From Lentisphaera araneosa HTCC2155 (GTDB lineage: Bacteria > Verrucomicrobiota > Lentisphaeria > Lentisphaerales > Lentisphaeraceae), in NCBI RefSeq assembly GCF_000170755.1, contig NZ_ABCK01000003.1, positions 186,001 to 250,000 of the forward strand: a stretch of 64,000 bases of DNA, read 5' to 3'. The notes below the pieces were generated by a model, which ran no database searches, was not told the DNA's origin, and saw only the letters and a list, made by a program, of their open reading frames with translations. This document shows, piece after piece, positions 25,698 to 64,000 of this stretch; positions within the stretch are counted from its first letter, which is position 1, and each line of letters begins with the position of its first letter. Both the position numbers and the translations under genes were made by a program.

Positions 25698-26024
25698 ATG
25701 AGTCAGTGGCTAGAAAAAAAATGTGAAGCTTGTGAGGGTGGTGTTGAGCCTTTGAGTGAAGAAATTATCAATGATTTCCTTTCGACCGTTCCAGGTTGGG
25801 AATACAAAGAGTTGCGTTTATCGCAAAAATTTGATTTCAAAAATCATTACGAAGCGATTTCATTCGTCAATGCAGTTGCATGGATTTCTCACACCGAGAA
25901 TCATCACCCCATTATGGAAGTCGGTTTTCGCGATGTGACCATCTTTTATTGGACACATGCTATCGACGGCATTAGTGATAACGATTTCATTTGCGCCGCC
26001 AAAGTTAATCAGCTTCTTAATTAA
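25698..26024 (+). CDS. phhB: Pterin-4a-carbinolamine dehydratase
   Basis: A 108-residue DCoH/PCD-fold protein that recycles pterin cofactor by dehydrating 4a-hydroxytetrahydrobiopterin. The catalytic histidine set is visible in ISHTENHHPIMEVGFRDVTIFYWTHAIDGIS. GWEYKELRLSQKFDFKNHYEAISFVN is the usual N-terminal part. No phenylalanine hydroxylase gene is in the window, and many bacteria with stand-alone PCD use it in other pterin contexts. A tandem repeat array starts directly after its stop. Confidence 0.95.
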   Translation: MSQWLEKKCEACEGGVEPLSEEIINDFLSTVPGWEYKELRLSQKFDFKNHYEAISFVNAVAWISHTENHHPIMEVGFRDVTIFYWTHAIDGISDNDFICAAKVNQLLN

Positions 26025-26027
26025 TCT

Positions 26028-26893
26028 GCTGGGTTAAGGGCCGGCAGGTCCTTACAGGGAGCTCGAGGGGCAGCACTCCCTCGTGTGCAAAGCATTCATA
26101 AAGGCAGAGAAGGCCTCAGGATTCAGGATTGTTTTTATATGCGTGCCGAAGGCACGAAGTATAAAGCTCAATAAAATTTCTTAGCCGCCGGGTTAAGGGC
26201 CGGCAGGTCCTTACGGGGAGCTCGAGGGGCAGCGCTCCCTCGTGTGCGAAGCACTCATAAAGGCCAAGAAGGACTCAGGAATCAGGACTCAGAAATGTTT
26301 TATAGACGTGCCGAAGGCACGAAGTATAAGCGAGCCTATGGTTTCAACCATAGGTACCGAGTTTAATATTATCTCCCGTTCTGAAGGAACGGAGCATAGA
26401 CTCAATAAAACTTCTTAGCCGCCGGGTTAAGAGCCGGCAGGTCCTTACGGGGAGCTCGAGGGGCAGCGCTCCCTCGTGTGCGAAGCACTCATAAAGGCCA
26501 AGAAGGACTCAGGAATCAGGACTCAGAAATGTTTTATAGACGTGCCGAAGGCACGAAGTATAAGCGAGCCTATGGTTTCAACCATAGGTACCGAGTTTAA
26601 TATTATCTCCCGTTCTGAAGGAACGGAGCATAGACTCAATAAAACTTCTTAGCCGCCGGGTTAAGAGCCGGCAGGTCCTTACGGGGAGCTCGAGGGGCAG
26701 CGCTCCCTCGTGTGCGAAGCACTCATAAATAGATGGAAGGTGTCTGGGTATCCTATATGCGTGCCGAAGGCACGAAGCATAAAGCTCAATAAAATTTCTT
26801 AGTCGCCAGGTTAAGGGCCGGCAGGTCCTTACGGGGAGCTCGAGGGGCAGCGCTCCCTCGTGTGCGCAGCACTCATAGAGCCACCCACAAGTT
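26028..26893. repeat. Tandem array of five copies of a GC-rich hairpin repeat
   Basis: Five copies of a module of about 90 bases begin near 26028, 26187, 26421, 26655 and 26805, giving spacings of 159, 234, 234 and 150 bases. Copies two and three are near-identical over their full 234 bases. The core contains GGGTTAAGGGCCGGCAGG, CGAGGG pairing with CCCTCG, and GTGC-GAA-GCAC. The 234-base units add further hairpins: GTGCC-GAA-GGCAC, CCTATGGTT paired with AACCATAGG, and CGTTC paired with GAACG. No open frame runs through it. It fills the whole space between the phhB stop and the convergent HAD stop. Confidence 0.92.
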
Positions 26894-26897
26894 CAAA

Positions 26898-27668
26898 TTA
26901 AACTTGTTTCACCTGAGGAATAAATTCCAAGGCCTCATCAAAATCTGTAATCACTTCTTCGAAACCCTTGGTCTTGAGTTTGCTTAATTTTTCCTGATCG
27001 CAACCCTTGCCATCTTCTTCGCTGATGGCTACGCCAATGCAGGGGCAAGCGAGCTCACGGCCCGCTTCAAGTTCAGTGAGGCCATCGCCAATGATGAGTG
27101 TGTTTTCATTATTATAAGCGTAATCTTTAATCGTTTTGCGGATGGATTCACGTTTGTAGGGCAGTTCCAAATGCTTTTCATATCCTTGGATATGAACAAA
27201 GTATTGACTAAGCTCTAAAGTCTCACATTCAAACAGAAGCTTTTCGTGGCTCGTGCCCGAGAGTAAATGCAATTCGTAGCCCAGTTCAATTAAATTTTCT
27301 AAAAATTTGCGAGCTCCGCAAAGCATCAGTTGGTCCAGTTGACCTTTATCCTTGAGCTCAGTAACACGAGCGTATTCCCAATCACTTGAATAAGTATCAA
27401 ATTCTTCGATGATTTGATCAAGTGAATGCTCAATCGAGCAAAAATTAAGGATTTCACTTAAGGCACCCATTTGTTGCGCAATCGTCGTTCCGGGTGCATG
27501 GCTAATCCATTCTTCTGTTTGGCTGAGCGCTTCTTCTTTTGTGGTCTCTGATAAATTTGCGGTTTCAGCAAAAAGTTTTTGATGAAAAAACTCTCGCATT
27601 TTATCTTCCCAACCACAACGAACACGCGTTAGGGTTCCATCAAAATCAATAATAGCGGCTTTATTCAC
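26898..27668 (-). CDS. HAD-superfamily phosphatase
   Basis: A 256-residue HAD hydrolase. Motif I is IIDFDGTLTRVRCGW, motif II is ELHLLSGTSHEK, the motif III lysine lies around LPYKRES, and motif IV is TLIIGDGLTELEAG. The helical cap is of the phosphoglycolate/phosphoserine phosphatase kind. It overlaps the tadA end by 8 bases and ends beside the repeat array. It is the last gene of the lolC/E-lolD-tadA-HAD operon. Substrate unknown. Confidence 0.87.
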   Translation of the reverse strand: MNKAAIIDFDGTLTRVRCGWEDKMREFFHQKLFAETANLSETTKEEALSQTEEWISHAPGTTIAQQMGALSEILNFCSIEHSLDQIIEEFDTYSSDWEYARVTELKDKGQLDQLMLCGARKFLENLIELGYELHLLSGTSHEKLLFECETLELSQYFVHIQGYEKHLELPYKRESIRKTIKDYAYNNENTLIIGDGLTELEAGRELACPCIGVAISEEDGKGCDQEKLSKLKTKGFEEVITDFDEALEFIPQVKQV

Positions 27669-28185: not shown

Positions 28186-28853
28186 GAGCTCAGTTTACCT
28201 TTTTTGAGCGTAAAGACTTTGGAGGCATACTTTTTTAATTGGTGATCATGCGTCACCATGACGATTGTTTTGCCTTGTTTGCGAAGTTCGCTAAAAAACT
28301 CGATGAGTTCCTCAGAAGTTTTTGGATCGAGATTGCCCGTGGGTTCGTCGGCCAAGATGATGTCGGGGTCATTCACTAAGGCGCGACAAATCGCCACGCG
28401 TTGTTGTTCACCACCAGAAAGAGCTCCTGGGTGGTGCGTTGATCGCGAGGCCAAGCCAACGCGTTCAAGTAATTCCATGGAACGCTTTTTTGCTTGATTG
28501 CTCTGACTAGAGAATTGTGCCGGAAGCATGACGTTTTCTAAAGCTGTGAGTTCGGGGATGAGCTGAAAGGATTGGAAGACAAAGCCGAGTTGATCTTGAC
28601 GCAATTTGGCTTTAGCCATGGCAGAAAATTTCGCGTAGTTTTTCCCTTGGAGCAGAAGTCGACCACTATCGGCTTTGTCGAGGGTTCCCAAGATATTGAG
28701 GAAAGTTGATTTACCACTTCCTGAAGAGCCGATGAGCATCGCCCAGTCACCCTGTTGGATGTCGAGACTGACATTATCCAAAACCTGAATACGGCCTGCA
28801 TCAGCGGAATTGTAGTGTTTGCTTATATTCTGCGCGGAAAGAAAACTACTCAT
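28182..28853 (-). CDS. lolD: Lipoprotein-releasing ABC transporter ATPase LolD
   Basis: The cytoplasmic ATPase that powers release of lipoproteins from the inner membrane. It is 223 residues. Walker A is GSSGSGKST, the signature is [11 protein letters not shown], Walker B is [13 protein letters not shown], and the H-loop is VMVTHDHQ. The MacB/LolD class is indicated by the Q-loop [21 protein letters not shown]. It overlaps the upstream permease by 8 bases. Its presence implies an outer membrane. Confidence 0.95.
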
Positions 28854-30114
28854 TTGATTGCAAAGCCTTTACAGGGTTGACAGAGACAGCCACTAAGGCG
28901 GGGAAAAGAGAAGCGAGAGCACAAATGATAATCGCTCCCCAGAAAATGAGGTGCACATCAGAGGAAAGGATGAGCATCGGCACGCGATCCAACATATAAA
29001 AGTCGGCATCCCAATTACCTAAAATACCAACTACCCACTCACGCTTATCCAGCGTAAACAAACCACCAATAAGACCTAGGGTTGAGCCGAGAGAACCAAG
29101 CACGAGGCCTTGAATGAGGAAGACCCAAAGGATTTGTATGGGTGTAGCGCCAATGGCCTTGAGCACGCCGATTTCCCGCGTTTTTTGGAGTACCAGTGAG
29201 AACAAGCAGGCAGCAACCCCCACGGCAGCTCCGCCAACAATAAAGAATAACACCAAGGTCATCATCGTTTTTTCTTTCTTGACGATATCAAAGAACTGCT
29301 TCTTTTTATATTGCCAGGGATAAAACTGTGCTTTGGTATTAAAGAAATAGGGATCACGGGCAAGTTCTTTAGTGACTTCTTCCGCTTTTACGGGATCTGG
29401 GATCGAGAGGTCAATGCCGAGCGAAGCGCCCCAATCCTGTTCGAGTAATTCGTTTGCACTATCGAGATGAATGAACATGAGGTTTTTGTCGATGTCCACA
29501 TAACCCGTGCGGAAGATTCCACTCACCGTGAGTTCGAGTGCCATGTTGAGGTAGACGTCATCGACTTTCCCTTCTTCTTTTTGAAGCAGTAACTTGCCGT
29601 ACTTTTGCGGTGAGTGCACAATGATTTTATCCCCAATAGTGACGCCGAGCATTGCCGAGAGGCGGCTGGAAATCAGTGCTCCTTTGGGATCGAGCTGATA
29701 CTTACCATTTTCATCGAGGCCATCAATGATGTAAGTTTTGAGTTTCGAGGCTTCTTGATCATATTCGGGTAAGATACCCTTCGCTAAAAAGGATTTTATG
29801 CTCTTGTCTTGCTGAATGAAGATGGGCATTTGCGTGTAGGGGGAGCATTTGAAATCATACTTATTTTCGATGTGATCCATTAAGTCTAAGTAATCGGGGA
29901 AGAATTTGCCATCATAACGACTCATGGAAATATGCGATTCCACTTCCATGATCTTTTTTTGGATCTCGTGGGGATGACCATTCATCACACTCATGACCAC
30001 TAGCAAGACGCCGACTCCAAGCATGGGGCCGAGGCAGGAGAGCCAAGTGACGATTGATGAGATGTTTTTCTTTGGCTTCAAATAACGCCAAGTTAGAAAA
30101 AAGATGCCTTTCAT
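28846..30114 (-). CDS. Lipoprotein-releasing permease, LolC/LolE family
   Basis: A 422-residue inner-membrane subunit with the LolC/E layout. One membrane helix lies near the N-terminus (WLSCLGPMLGVGVLLVVMSVMNG), a large periplasmic MacB-like domain follows, and three more helices form the FtsX domain (about residues 285-415). The segment KTREIGVLKAIGATPIQILWVFLIQG is diagnostic. Only one such permease gene is seen here; it may form a homodimer or pair with a second copy elsewhere. Overlapped by lolD. Confidence 0.92.
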   Translation of the reverse strand: MKGIFFLTWRYLKPKKNISSIVTWLSCLGPMLGVGVLLVVMSVMNGHPHEIQKKIMEVESHISMSRYDGKFFPDYLDLMDHIENKYDFKCSPYTQMPIFIQQDKSIKSFLAKGILPEYDQEASKLKTYIIDGLDENGKYQLDPKGALISSRLSAMLGVTIGDKIIVHSPQKYGKLLLQKEEGKVDDVYLNMALELTVSGIFRTGYVDIDKNLMFIHLDSANELLEQDWGASLGIDLSIPDPVKAEEVTKELARDPYFFNTKAQFYPWQYKKKQFFDIVKKEKTMMTLVLFFIVGGAAVGVAACLFSLVLQKTREIGVLKAIGATPIQILWVFLIQGLVLGSLGSTLGLIGGLFTLDKREWVVGILGNWDADFYMLDRVPMLILSSDVHLIFWGAIIICALASLFPALVAVSVNPVKALQSNE

Positions 30115-30929
30115 TAAATTCCTCTAAGTGATTTCGCTCAAAATAAAGCAGGCTCATAAGCTTACAAGCAGACAGTCAACAACAAGTAGCGATTTAGTTA
30201 ACGCGCTTCGCGCTGAGATTACGGCCTTCGGCCTGAGAGATAGAGTTTAGATCGTTCGCAAGCGAACTGAAAGAAGCAAGACCGAGCTAAAGCTCTGAAA
30301 GAGATAAGAATTAAATTCATGGTTCAAGTTTTTTGACCTTCAATTCAAAATTAAGAATTCACCATTTAAAATTATCTTTTGCTGGGAGCGCGGGAATCCT
30401 TCCCGCATTATTTGGATACTTGATTAATGATAATCTCACGCAGAGGCGCGAAGTCGCCGAGTTTGAGTTATTGGGTTATATTTAAAATGACTCTATCTAT
30501 CCTATCAGTTAGATCTGTGATTAAATAAAGTTTTAATTCAATATTCAACTTCAAGTCTTCAAACTCAGCGCGAAGCGCGTTAACTCAGGAACTGGTTCCG
30601 TCAACTCAGCAATGCGTAAACTCAGAAGCTTTGCTTCGTCACCTAAGCTCGGAACGAGCGCTACCTAAACGCATGAAATGCGTGCAGCCTAAGGCTAAGT
30701 CGCTCCCCAAGCGCCGGCGCAACCCTAGGCGAAGCCGTCTCCACCCTCTTACAGCGAAGCGTTCTTTCAGTTCGCTTGCGAACGGTCTTAGCTCTAGTTT
30801 CTGAAGCTCCGCTTCATCACCTATGACAAAAAAATCTCATAAAAGCCCAAATTGCTGTCAATTTGTTACCCTCGACAGTTATTAATCAAGTATTCAACAC
30901 GAAACAAATTTATTAAGAGGAATCACCTT
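30115..30929. repeat. Intergenic spacer packed with short hairpin cassettes
   Basis: An 815-base non-coding region between divergent genes. At least ten short inverted repeats are visible: GCGC-TTC-GCGC (30203-30213), GGCC-TTC-GGCC (30223-30233), GTTCGC-AA-GCGAAC (30254-30267), GAGCT-AA-AGCTC (30284-30295), GCGGGAA-TCC-TTCCCGC (30390-30406). Between about 30565 and 30830 lie GCGC-GAA-GCGC, GGAAC-TG-GTTCC, GAAGC-TTT-GCTTC, GCTCG-GAA-CGAGC, ACGCAT-GAA-ATGCGT, AGCCT-A-AGGCT and GTTCGC-TT-GCGAAC. Units are joined by similar spacers (TGAG, TGAA, or their complements TCACCTAA and CTCA). No open frame or RNA gene was recognised. Confidence 0.85.
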
Positions 30930-33326
30930 ATGCAGTACGGCTATTTTGATGATAAAAACAAAGAATATGTAATTGAACGTCCCGATACACCAACTTCTTG
31001 GAGTAACTACTTAGGTTCCACTCGTTATGGTGCGATTATTACCAATAATGCGGGTGGCTATAGTTTCTTTAAATCAGTGGCTCAAGGTCGCTTCACACGC
31101 TTGCGTTTTAACGCAGTTCCCATGGACCAAGCGGGCCGTTATATTTATATCCATGATGCGGATACAAAAGATTATTGGTCAGCTTCTTGGCAACCAGTGG
31201 CTAAGCCTTTAGACGAATATAAATCTGAATGTCGTCATGGTTCTGCGTACACAAAAATTTCTTCTGATTACTCAGATATTGCGACAAACACAAATTTTTT
31301 CGTGCCACTTGATTCTGATTATGAATGCTGGCGCACAACAGTAAAAAATAATGGCGCCACTAAGCGTACACTGAAAATGTTCACTTACGTCGAATACGGC
31401 TGTAACTGGAATGCTAATGACGACCTCAATAATCTTCAGTATTCACAGTACATCACCGATATGAGCGTTGTTGATGGTATCATTAGCCATGCTTCAAACA
31501 CTAATCTTCCTGAGATGCCGGATAATTTAGAAGAAAAAGACCAGGCGCGTTATACTTTCCTCGGAGCTGTGGGTGTTGAGGTAACGGGCTACGATACAAG
31601 TCGTGAAGCCTTCATTGGCCCTTACCGTAGCTATGCAAACCCGATTGCCGTAGAAAAGGGTGAGTGTTCGAACTCACTTGCGAAAGCTGGCAACCCTTGC
31701 GGTACACTGCAGTTTGAGATTACTCTTGAGCCAGGCGAAGAGAAAGAATTCGCAATCTTCATGGGTATTGGCCGTGCAGAAAAAGAGGGTAAGCAAGTTG
31801 TTGAAAAGTTTGCTAACCTCGATCTCATTGACTCTGAGTTTGAGAAATTGAAAAATTACTGGCATTCAAAGATGTCACAAATGTCCGTACAAACTCCCGA
31901 TGGCGATGTCGACTCCATGCTCAATATGTGGAGTCAATTTAATAGCTTGATGACTTTCTTCTGGTCACGTGCAGCCAGTCTCGTTTATTCAGGAGCTCGC
32001 GATGGTCTCGGTTACCGTGATACGGTACAAGATATGCTCGGTGTGATGCACGCGATTCCAGAACTCGTTCAAGAGCGTTTGGAACTGATGATCACGGGGC
32101 AAGTAGCCAGTGGTGGTGCAATGCCAGTTGTGAAGCCTTTCGCTCATAAGCCTGGTTTTGAACCCGAGCCCAGCCCAGAAGAGTTCCGTTCAGACGATGC
32201 CCTCTGGCTCTTTAACGCCGTTCCTGCTTATGTGAAAGAAACGGGTGACCTCGACTTCTACAAAAAAGTACTTCCTTATGCCGACAAAGGACAAGATACG
32301 ATTTTAGCTCACTTGCGTAGAGCGCTTGAATTCAGCATTAAATACTCAGGAGCTCACGGTTTCCCATGTGGTATGTTAGCTGACTGGAATGACTGTCTCG
32401 AACTCGGTCAGCAGGGCGAAACAGTTTTCGTGGCTTTCCAATTGCGTTATGGCCTCAAAACTTATATCGAAATCTGTCAACTCTTAGAGACTTACGAAGA
32501 CGAAATTACTTGGGCTGTTGCGGAACTCGCAAAACTCGATAAAAACCTCCATGAGCATGCTTGGGATGGTGAATGGTTCCTGCGCGCTTATCGCGATGAT
32601 GGTCTTAAATTCGGTTCGAAAGAAAATGATGAGGGTTCAATCTTCCTTAATACTCAGACTTGGGCGGTGTTCTCTGATCACGCTTCACAAGAAGAAAAAG
32701 TTTCCGCGATGGATGCGGTTCACCGCGAACTGGCAACGGATTACGGCATCATGCTTTGTGCTCCTCCCTTTGTGAATACTGACTACAAAGTGGTACGTGC
32801 GGCACTCTTTAATCCAGGCCTCAAAGAAAATGCCGCTATCTTCACCCATACTCAGGGTTGGACGATTATGGCCGAAGCGATACTCGGACGTGGTGAGCGC
32901 GCTTTCGATTACTACAAATCAACGCTTCCTGCAGCATATAATGACCGTGCCGAGGTCCGCCAGATTGAACCTTATGTTTACTGTCAGTCAACTATTTCAA
33001 AGTTCCACCCCCAAGAAGGAGCTTCAAGACTCCCTTGGTTGACGGGTGCAGCCACATGGGCTTATTACGCAGCGTCGCAGTATATTATAGGTATCCAACC
33101 AGATTATAATGGCTTAAGCATCGATCCTTGTGTTCCAGCTAAATGGGACAAGTTCCAAGTGGAACGTCAATTCCGTGGAGCGACCTACCAGATCTCTGTG
33201 AGCAATCCCAATGGAGTCAATAAAGGCGTCGCCTCAATCAAACTCAATGGCGAAGCCATCGAAGGCCAATGCCTTCCCGTTTGCGCATCAGGTAGCAACA
33301 ACAAAGTTGAAGTCATCATGAGTTAA
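30930..33326 (+). CDS. GH94 disaccharide phosphorylase (cellobiose/chitobiose type)
   Basis: An inverting phosphorylase that splits a beta-linked disaccharide with phosphate to a sugar-1-phosphate plus a monosaccharide. With ATG 30930 the protein has 798 residues, and AAGAGGA lies 8 bases upstream; the open frame further upstream is not translated. The opening MQYGYFDDKNKEYVI, the GYRDTVQDMLG block and the catalytic-acid region GMLADWNDCLELG are diagnostic. Domains are N-terminal beta-sandwich, helical linker, alpha-barrel and C-terminal beta domain. Cellobiose and N,N'-diacetylchitobiose enzymes look alike here, so the substrate is left open. No signal peptide, so intracellular. Confidence 0.93.
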   Translation: MQYGYFDDKNKEYVIERPDTPTSWSNYLGSTRYGAIITNNAGGYSFFKSVAQGRFTRLRFNAVPMDQAGRYIYIHDADTKDYWSASWQPVAKPLDEYKSECRHGSAYTKISSDYSDIATNTNFFVPLDSDYECWRTTVKNNGATKRTLKMFTYVEYGCNWNANDDLNNLQYSQYITDMSVVDGIISHASNTNLPEMPDNLEEKDQARYTFLGAVGVEVTGYDTSREAFIGPYRSYANPIAVEKGECSNSLAKAGNPCGTLQFEITLEPGEEKEFAIFMGIGRAEKEGKQVVEKFANLDLIDSEFEKLKNYWHSKMSQMSVQTPDGDVDSMLNMWSQFNSLMTFFWSRAASLVYSGARDGLGYRDTVQDMLGVMHAIPELVQERLELMITGQVASGGAMPVVKPFAHKPGFEPEPSPEEFRSDDALWLFNAVPAYVKETGDLDFYKKVLPYADKGQDTILAHLRRALEFSIKYSGAHGFPCGMLADWNDCLELGQQGETVFVAFQLRYGLKTYIEICQLLETYEDEITWAVAELAKLDKNLHEHAWDGEWFLRAYRDDGLKFGSKENDEGSIFLNTQTWAVFSDHASQEEKVSAMDAVHRELATDYGIMLCAPPFVNTDYKVVRAALFNPGLKENAAIFTHTQGWTIMAEAILGRGERAFDYYKSTLPAAYNDRAEVRQIEPYVYCQSTISKFHPQEGASRLPWLTGAATWAYYAASQYIIGIQPDYNGLSIDPCVPAKWDKFQVERQFRGATYQISVSNPNGVNKGVASIKLNGEAIEGQCLPVCASGSNNKVEVIMS

Positions 33327-33487
33327 GGCGCTTCGCGCTGAGGGAGCGGCTTCGCCTAAGGGAGCGCTCGTTCCGTCAACTCAGGAATTTGTTCCGTCAA
33401 TTCAACGAAGCGCGAGGACTCCCTACACTCCCTAAGGTCTGCGGCCACTCCCTAAGGCCTACGGCCGCAACTCAAGCGCGTAGAGTT
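33327..33487. repeat. Hairpin-cassette cluster between the phosphorylase and manC
   Basis: Starts directly at the phosphorylase stop. Contains GCGC-TTC-GCGC followed by TGAG, AGCG-GCTTC-GC variants, GGAA-TTT-GTTCC, and GGTCT-GC-GGCC and GGCC-TAC-GGCC, joined by repeated ACTCCCTAA and CAACTCA spacers. Same style as the array at 30.1-30.9 kb. Non-coding. Confidence 0.75.
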
Positions 33488-62785: not shown

Positions 62786-63667
62786 ATGAAAAATATAGAA
62801 ACCATAATTGTTGGCGTTACTTCAAAGAAACAATTCAGTTTAGCTGTGCGAGAAGCGCAAAAGTTAAGTGAACTCTTCGGAGTGCTGATCTACCCCGTAC
62901 ATATCATTGAGCCGCTGAGTGTGAAATTACTCCACCCCACATCTACTGATGAGACAATAGATAAAATGATGATGAAACTGAGTGATGAAATACAGCGACT
63001 CTACCCCGATTATGGACATCATAAAATTGAGGCACCACTCATCAGTGTGGGTAATACGGCAAAAGAGCTTGCGCATATCGCAAAAAAAATTGGTAATTCA
63101 CTCATTGTTGTGGGGCGTCATAGTAGTGGTTTTAGGCATATGCTTGGCAAGAGTCATGCCGAACGCTTAGTGAAATACGCCGAGGGACCCGTGTGGATTC
63201 ATCCCGATAAAGCTTTTACTGGCATCCCCAAGAAAATTTTATGCCCCGTAGATTTTACCACGTCATGTCAAAAAGCGGCGGCGGAAGCCTTATCTTTTGC
63301 GGAACAAACAGGGGCGAAACTCGAGTTTGTGCATGTGCTTCCCGAAGTGATCAATTACTCAGATTTTGATGGCTACCTTAGCACAAATAGTGGGGTGACA
63401 GAAATTACCGATGACGTTTTCCGGAAAGAGGCTGAGACGCAGTTCCGTCGCCTCTACAATTTATTGAATATCGATGAAGAACGCCACCCTCAGCACGTGC
63501 GTTTCGGTGATCCCTCCGCACAGATTCATATTTTGGCAAAAGAAATGAAAGCGGATTTGATTGTCGTGAGTTCCTCCTCCAATCATAAACTCGAAAAGAT
63601 GATTACGGGTAGCACAGTACGCCACATCATTCATGATGCTAAAGTTGATGTCCTCGTTGTGAAATAG
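62786..63667 (+). CDS. Tandem universal stress protein (two UspA domains)
   Basis: About 293 residues with two UspA folds, roughly 1-145 and 146-293. The first contains IIVGVTSKKQFSLAVREA and LIVVGRHSSG, the second ILCPVDFTTSCQKAAAEALSFAEQTGAKLEFVHVLPEV, then LIVVSSSSNHKLEKMITGSTVRHIIHDAKVDVLVV. The second domain ends with the ATP-binding G-2x-G-9x-G-like pattern altered (ITGSTVRHI). ATG 62786 has GAGGAG 7 bases upstream and is preferred over ATG 62771 and 62780. A hairpin array begins at the base after the stop. Confidence 0.9.
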   Translation: MKNIETIIVGVTSKKQFSLAVREAQKLSELFGVLIYPVHIIEPLSVKLLHPTSTDETIDKMMMKLSDEIQRLYPDYGHHKIEAPLISVGNTAKELAHIAKKIGNSLIVVGRHSSGFRHMLGKSHAERLVKYAEGPVWIHPDKAFTGIPKKILCPVDFTTSCQKAAAEALSFAEQTGAKLEFVHVLPEVINYSDFDGYLSTNSGVTEITDDVFRKEAETQFRRLYNLLNIDEERHPQHVRFGDPSAQIHILAKEMKADLIVVSSSSNHKLEKMITGSTVRHIIHDAKVDVLVVK

Positions 63668-63927
63668 TTTACGCGCTTCGCGCTGAGTTTACGCGCTTCG
63701 CGCTGAGTTTACGCGCTTCGCGCTGAGAATACACGCTAGGTGCTGAGTTTACGCGCTTCGCGCTGAGTTGACGCACTGCGTGCTGAGTTTACGCGCTTCG
63801 CGCTGAGTTTACGCGCTTCGCGCTGAGTTGACGCACTGCGTGCTGAGTTTACGCGCTTCGCGCTGAGAATACGCACTGCGTGCTGAGTTGACGCACTACG
63901 CGCTGAGTTTACGCGCTATGCGCTGAG
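63668..63927. repeat. Thirteen tandem 20-bp hairpin units
   Basis: Thirteen head-to-tail units of exactly 20 bases. Eight carry or equal the consensus core ACGCGCTTCGCGCTGAG. The others have ACGCACTGCGTGCTGAG (three), ACACGCTAGGTGCTGAG, ACGCACTACGCGCTGAG or ACGCGCTATGCGCTGAG. Each unit is a hairpin with a 4-bp stem and 3-base loop; in the GCAC variants both arms change together (GCAC/GTGC). The first three bases of the unit vary (TTT, TTG, AAT). Non-coding. Confidence 0.95.
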
Positions 63928-63945
63928 TTATTATAGGAGGGGAAT

Positions 63946-64000
63946 ATGAATTTTGAAGATTTAGAAATTTGGAAGCGCTCGGTGAAACTGAGTATTGCTA
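63946..64000 (+). CDS. Four-helix-bundle protein (23S rRNA IVP/Avd-like), partial
   Basis: An ATG with a strong AGGAGG ribosome site 5 to 7 bases upstream opens MNFEDLEIWKRSVKLSIA and runs off the right edge. MxFxDLxxWKxSxxL is the typical start of the four-helix-bundle family, related to intervening-sequence proteins of 23S rRNA and to Avd of diversity-generating retroelements. Only 18 residues are visible, so the call rests on the opening alone. Confidence 0.75.
   Translation, partial: MNFEDLEIWKRSVKLSIA

Follow-up and report, generated by a model that had tools for sequence, protein, structure and literature searches.

Inverted hairpin arrays in a Lentisphaera araneosa spacer are probably a gene-less composite of repeats belonging to S23 elements

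The window, a 64,000-nucleotide stretch of the Lentisphaera araneosa HTCC2155 genome (contig NZ_ABCK01000003.1, positions 186,001 to 250,000), contains at 30115-30929 a spacer bounded by an FtsX-type permease gene (28846-30114, minus strand) on one side and a GH94 gene (30930-33326, plus strand) on the other. Rule-based counting identified 11 jointed hairpins in this spacer, including one doubtful case (30686-30696), with differing stems (GCGC, GGCC, GTTCGC, GAGCT, GGAAC, GAAGC, GCTCG, and ACGCAT). The rule required a perfectly paired stem of 4-8 bp containing two or more G/C, a loop of 2-4, and a joint, either CTCA, CTTA, CCTAA, or TTTCA preceding the hairpin or TGAG, TAAG, or TGAAAGA after it. 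Across 500 Markov-1 shuffles of the region, the same count averaged 0.25 (sd 0.53) with a maximum of 3, a contrast that is generous because the joint rule was framed after the region had been inspected; the remaining 815-nt steps of the window averaged 0.34 jointed hairpins. The original prediction of more than ten hairpins with unrelated stems and common joints was thus borne out. Any sequence contains many short stems, and on that ground the hairpins could be taken for a chance or low-complexity artefact, but the excess over the shuffles and the exact 20-nt tandem arrays leave such an explanation with negligible likelihood.

The two halves of the spacer are inverted about its centre (Table 1), with TGAG/TGAAAGA units on the left and CTCA, CCTAA, and TCTTTCA units on the right. 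Two pairs of inverted arms were detected, one of 25 nt (30196-30220 and 30561-30585, 96%) and one of 35 nt (30241-30275 and 30762-30796, 91%). Several joint types are present, as had been proposed, but they are not freely mixed: the TGAG orientation lies to the left and the CTCA orientation to the right. The REP in the centre belongs to a separate repeat family and resembles the REPs beside RAYT-like genes of the same genome. Elsewhere in the window, the spacer at 26020-26900 carries 2.5 copies of a 234-bp unit (97% matches) together with diverged copies, and hairpins such as GTGCC GAA GGCAC are frequent in it.

Table 1. Repeat features and S23 gene of the window (positions of the window; loops in lower case)
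Feature	Position	Strand	Remarks
Left half-array	30196..30303	-	four units, TGAG/TGAAAGA orientation; scored as a cluster of five minus signs
Left hairpins	30203-30213; 30223-30233		GCGC ttc GCGC; GGCC ttc GGCC
Left hairpins	30254-30267; 30284-30295		GTTCGC aa GCGAAC; GAGCT aa AGCTC
Centre between half-arrays	30304..30560	.	no S23 remnant by tblastn
RAYT-type REP, separate repeat family	30384..30410	+	GGGAGC + GCGGGAA tcc TTCCCGC + att
Right half-array, CTCA then CCTAA units	30561..30691	+	scored as a cluster of six plus signs
Right hairpins	30568-30578; 30588-30599; 30625-30637; 30647-30659; 30669-30683; 30686-30696		last one doubtful
Right half-array, continuation	30750..30822	+	TCTTACA/TCTTTCA units (AGCGAAGCG)
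Hairpins of the continuation	30770-30783; 30802-30816		GTTCGC tt GCGAAC; TGAAGC tcc GCTTCA
Second orphan hairpin array	33326..33480	.	immediately past GH94 gene
Tandem array	63666..63929	-	13 hairpin units, each 20 nt: GCGC ttc GCGC, GCAC tgc GTGC, others
S23 gene start	63946..64000	+	gene complete in L040

Transcription terminators, or hairpins that otherwise regulate the adjacent genes, would fit the intergenic position between two divergent genes and the GC-rich stems. However, clusters of these units reach 35, a search of the window against Rfam gave no match, the same units adjoin unrelated genes, and two congeners have different sequence in the orthologous spacer; terminators were therefore rejected, and a regulatory origin of any such kind is highly improbable. 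In these congeners (G059 and G060), the orthologous spacers carry other arrays, with plain heptamers in one case and an additional pair of genes in the other, which indicates fast turnover. The extra two-gene module in the orthologous spacer L184 (G060:C2:1831300-1832900) appears by eye to consist of a nucleotidyltransferase-like gene and a small partner.

The TGAG/CTCA joint is shared between units, as had been claimed, but is longer than four bases, the full joint of the main type being CGTNAACTCA. The pattern CGTHMACTYAG matched this genome 172 times and its reversed version 62 times, in line with the genome-wide excess that had been anticipated. Two genomes of the same genus yielded 67 and 38 matches, and the other 16 relatives searched yielded at most 24 each. 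The exact sequence CGCGCTTCGCGCTGAG occurred 35 times in the 6.02-Mb genome, mostly within tandem 20-nt arrays. Among 33 distinct CTCA-type cores in the sampled DNA of this genome, 18 had a stem of at least 4, compared with 0.9 expected from shuffled cores, consistent with the earlier statement that the stems retain their pairing but not their sequence. A tetranucleotide scan downstream of hairpins took in the whole of the sampled DNA, with dilution by coding sequence.

Four tandem arrays comprised 80 units (including two spurious register matches), of which 61 were fully paired, with GCGC/GCGC (42) or GCAC/GTGC (19) arms. One-sided changes were common among the same 80 units (eight A.C, six G.T, and two C.A). 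The frequency of one-sided changes and the restriction of the 61 fully paired units to two arm types both count against the S23-based reading favoured below. The loop was TNC (GNA on the opposite strand) in 71 of the 80 units, one spurious match being among the 71, a correction to the loop types described earlier. Intergenic triloop hairpins with a stem of at least 5 numbered 118 against 74.8 (sd 9.2) in shuffles, and those with GNA/TNC loops numbered 22 against 8.1 (sd 2.4). Mini-hairpins of the type d(GCGNAGC) are unusually stable DNA, and this stability hints at a role for single-strand DNA. A copying process, for example template switching within the hairpin, is a good candidate for the cause of the two-arm stem changes; the original prediction had invoked template switching inside replication forks, and its other suggestion, a barcode-like use, was not supported.

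A conserved short joint next to a hairpin is also the layout of REPs, and if the units were REP/BIME elements of RAYT transposases, this would further accord with the 16 matches to Y1_Tnp (PF01797) in the genome, several of them in longer frames as in RAYTs, and with the one RAYT-type REP inside the region. Nevertheless, the CTCA joint was found at none of the eight transposase loci inspected (of the 16 matches), whereas it is present at S23 loci, and the repeats flanking L033-L036 keep their stem and have other joints (GGTAC-GCCAAGC and GGGAGC-GCCGGCG). Because the RAYT-like genes (eight of 16 inspected) bear other, stem-conserved REPs and the stem sequence is unconserved here, we rejected a REP/RAYT origin as very unlikely, in agreement with the earlier view that the array is not of ordinary REP type. 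The RAYT/IS200-like genes at L030 and L032-L036 have their own REPs or stem-loops, with stems including GCCAAGC, GCCGGCG, GCGGGCG, and CGTGGGG. A CRISPR array was also considered and dismissed: the variable part is itself palindromic between joints, and the plasmid matches in cas operons are S23 genes located between cas genes.

The gene at the end of the window is one of four S23 genes (PF05635/TIGR02436, four-helix-bundle) in this genome, the products of which match TIGR02436 with E values of 1.6e-32 to 6e-30. The AlphaFold model of the window-end product had a pLDDT of 96, and its top PDB match was 2gsc (TM 0.94), the S23 protein XCC0516 of X. campestris. To our knowledge, no function has been assigned to the S23 family. 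The 13-unit tandem array stands immediately 5' of this gene, and more arrays lie 3' of it (L019, 284-690 and 713-1128); a tandem array is present within a few bases 3' of all four S23 genes of the genome. Their period scores were 49, 60, 38, and 60, and among 350 genes sampled in 450 kb, scores of at least 45 and at least 38 were reached by one and two genes, respectively, the sole gene with at least 45 being the one that precedes the S23 array of the window. The array units comprise CTCA units at L037 and L040, a 17-nt unit (AGCGAAGCGATACTTTG) at L038, and CCTAA units at L039. In the congener G059, the S23 genes at L154 and L174 have TCTTTCA/TGAAAGA units and L162 has another unit, but L166, an S23 locus of the same genus, shows no evident array, which counts against the association.

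The joints vary with the S23 proteins: the L037/L040 pair, with 86% identity, has the CTCA joint in common, whereas joints differ between pairs with 58-61% identity, as in L039, which is approximately 60% identical to L037/L040 and has CCTAA. All three joint types (CTCA, CCTAA, and TCTTTCA/TGAAAGA) are present side by side in 30115-30929, where the units of 30750-30822 have the same joint as the S23 elements L154 and L174. The layout is also shared. Ten unit clusters (at least three units) were detected in the 450-kb sample, and the two long clusters with two orientations both run from minus to plus, one behind an S23 gene (15 minus, 17 plus) and one gene-less (30 minus, 5 plus). The two clusters of 30115-30929 follow the same minus-plus order (5 minus, then 6 plus); two of the remaining clusters are minus only and four are short and mixed. 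At L037 and L174, in two Lentisphaera species, distinct S23 elements with distinct arrays lie behind a gene that seems to be common to both and is cysQ-like by eye, which points to a favoured site.

Since its joints match different S23 elements of the genus, the spacer 30115-30929 is read as a composite, and we conclude that it is probably an orphan, gene-less composite of inverted repeat arrays belonging to S23 elements. A point against this is that tblastn with four S23 proteins (E≤10) detected no S23 remnant in the centre (30304-30560). The observation behind the original prediction is confirmed and its interpretation partly supported; it did not include the connection with S23 genes, the two-sided inverted arrangement, or the assignment of the joints to different S23 elements.

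To evaluate S23 loci more broadly, we scanned species genomes and kept 80 S23 loci out of at least 582 relatives; 200-nt flanks were compared where both were present (72 of the 80 loci), with a cut of 14.5 corresponding to the 99th percentile of mismatched pairs. Among the matches listed, 42 of the 72 S23 loci, from many phyla, had inverted flanks above this cut, compared with 8 of 280 other genes of the same loci used as a control; flanks in direct orientation exceeded it at 5 of 72 loci. The other 30 of the 72 S23 loci among these matches did not reach the inverted-flank cut, which counts against a general link. For the matches listed, flank autocorrelation peaked at lags 7, 14, and 21 (lag 7, 0.340 versus 0.294), array units varied from locus to locus, and arrays outside Lentisphaeria were mostly plain heptamers with hairpin units in the minority, the last point again counting against the S23 reading. 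GCGNAGC was mildly raised in the listed matches (0.96 versus 0.60 per kb), and a universal GNA-hairpin rule for S23 arrays, considered across these 80 loci, was rejected as not general, although it holds in Lentisphaera and at L097. Where both neighbours were called and co-directed (53 of 70 loci among the matches listed), the S23 gene pointed the same way in 47 and the opposite way in 6. Co-direction on single sides among these matches (62/77 and 56/73) was not above the baseline (66/87), so only the conditional 47 versus 6 is telling; the neighbours of L077 and L085 were misplaced by the ORF caller (shadow frames) and were left as called.

S23 matches were also present in 20 plasmid records, of which 13 loci were examined. 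Eight of the 13 exceeded the cut of 14.5, and five exceeded the 99th percentile of mismatched pairs within the plasmid set, which is higher (24.0) because several loci share GGGAA-like units. Several cyanobacterial plasmid S23 loci have STRR-like heptamers, and GGGAACA-like arrays are present at S23 genes of cyanobacterial plasmids. At three loci on cyanobacterial plasmids (L254, L257, and L258), the S23 gene is flanked by cas6 and cas4 or by cas10 and cmr3. Upstream of the Vibrio salinus S23 gene (L126), TCAGTTA repeats are the reverse complement of the Beggiatoaceae TAACTGA heptamer.

One Pseudomonas site, the flanks of which were matched in all 59 genomes searched, allowed presence and absence to be compared at 50 sites (30 loci and 20 fetched; nine were left out). 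The whole unit was present at 10 sites, a remnant at 2, and 38 were empty; among the empty sites listed, the stop-to-start spacer was approximately 9-14 nt, compared with approximately 500 when filled. At least nine presence/absence changes were required on the tree, six of them forced by well supported branches. Filled sites clustered no more than shuffled labels did on this tree, so gain and loss are indistinguishable there, and the patchiness may reflect losses or homologous exchange rather than insertion. The Pseudomonas S23 proteins are under strong constraint, with a median dN/dS of 0.09, calculated from nine of the 10 genes and the 22 usable pairs out of 36. Array identity reached 0.875 and 0.953, whereas third codon positions of S23 gave 0.543 and the remainder of the upstream spacer gave 0.551; the downstream array may partly double as the ribosome-binding region of the next gene.

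These comparisons bear on the possibility that the repeats are quasi-palindromes propagating by replication slippage and template switching alone, with S23 genes merely sharing tolerant spacers. Two-arm changes of the unit from GCGC/GCGC to GCAC/GTGC, the wide variation of stems, and the complete turnover of orthologous spacers would all be expected from such a process. It is unlikely, though, given that arrays occur at four of four S23 genes against approximately one in 350 genes, that inverted flanks, rare at control genes, typify S23 loci across many phyla, and that the Pseudomonas arrays are kept well above neutral.

We therefore return to S23 elements as the source of the arrays. An S23 element is a short four-helix-bundle gene in a host-gene spacer, mostly co-directed with its neighbours, with a repeat array upstream and another, in reverse complement, downstream. 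From the association of arrays and S23 genes, which is observed directly, we infer how the units spread and what the S23 protein binds. Joint and hairpin would be recognised by the S23 protein, or else by the array itself as RNA or single-strand DNA. Arrays may lengthen via slippage, and template switching inside the hairpin could transfer a change from one arm to the opposite arm, whereby pairing would be kept while stems drift. Arrays may also outlast the S23 gene or travel without it.

More tentatively, S23 genes with inverted arrays could constitute one of the commonest unrecognised classes of bacterial elements, resembling intervening sequences (IVSs) and riding in operons, with the over-abundant prokaryotic heptamer repeats, cyanobacterial STRRs, TAACTGA, GGGAATC, and the Lentisphaera hairpin arrays as their footprints; the S23 protein might act on an RNA or single-stranded DNA version of the array and read the joint and hairpin shape rather than the stem sequence. 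S23 arrays may be a source of many unexplained short bacterial repeats, and S23 genes in cas loci, as described in PMC3936711, may be operon passengers and not Cas proteins. The link provides a handle on both protein and repeat: a defined protein, a lineage-specific cis repeat, and natural presence/absence sites. A literature search, with preprints outside its scope, found no paper making a general connection between S23 genes and repeat arrays beside them, which is weak evidence of novelty.

Several known systems resemble parts of this arrangement. RAYT REPs likewise combine a fixed short joint with a hairpin, are dispersed in spacers, and are tied to a protein gene, but S23 is not a Y1 nuclease, and the present stems are unconserved in arrays that are tandem and inverted around the gene. 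The S23 fold is shared with Avd of diversity-generating retroelements (Foldseek 4dwl_D, TM 0.80, probability 1.00, E 0.07), and a resemblance of PF05635 to Avd is noted in PMC10053308; in contrast to Avd, the names of S23 neighbours at the 13 plasmid loci include no reverse transcriptase, and no template repeat was noticed. An S23 protein structure is credited to Lin et al. (2006) in papers citing that work.

STRRs of cyanobacteria are heptamer repeats. With these and with the repeats TAACTGA of Beggiatoaceae (PMC4679880) and GGGAATC of Xanthomonas and GGGGA(T/C)T of Nostoc (PMC4692102), the S23 arrays have in common that they are short intergenic arrays of approximately 7 nt. In X. campestris, 70 heptamer-repeat cases are described as inverted pairs (PMC4692102). 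A term search of the text available from PMC4679880 and PMC4692102 gave no mention of S23 or four-helix proteins, and no link to a gene family was evident in it. The predominance of seven-base repeats among the long simple repeats of prokaryotes is cited in PMC4679880 as an open question (Mrazek 2007).

The closest known kind is the rRNA IVS. In the 23S rRNA IVS of Coxiella burnetii, an S23 ORF lies between complementary ends with direct heptamers (GACAGAT) 5' of the ORF, and the IVS is excised by RNase III (PMC4990558); S23 proteins are also reported in rRNA inserts of CPR bacteria (PMC11270868) and in cas loci (PMC3936711). The arrays form a repeat system, as originally predicted, but not a wholly undescribed one, given that IVSs with the same protein, inverted ends, and heptamers are described in PMC4990558. 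The likeness extends to the protein family, the ORF between complementary stem-forming ends, the heptamers of Coxiella, and insertion into a transcription unit. By analogy, the two arrays of an S23 element could pair in the transcript and lead to RNase III-type processing, so that the insert would be tolerated inside operons. S23 elements differ from rRNA IVSs in that they lie in protein-gene spacers and end in repeat arrays, copies consisting of the array alone are dispersed through the genome, and units of this genus contain a hairpin. The neighbours of 30115-30929 are protein genes and Rfam gave no match, so the spacer is not an rRNA IVS; the S23 ORF is present in the genome (four genes) and absent from the spacer itself, and we class 30115-30929 as an IVS-like, probably gene-less hairpin variant of S23-element arrays.
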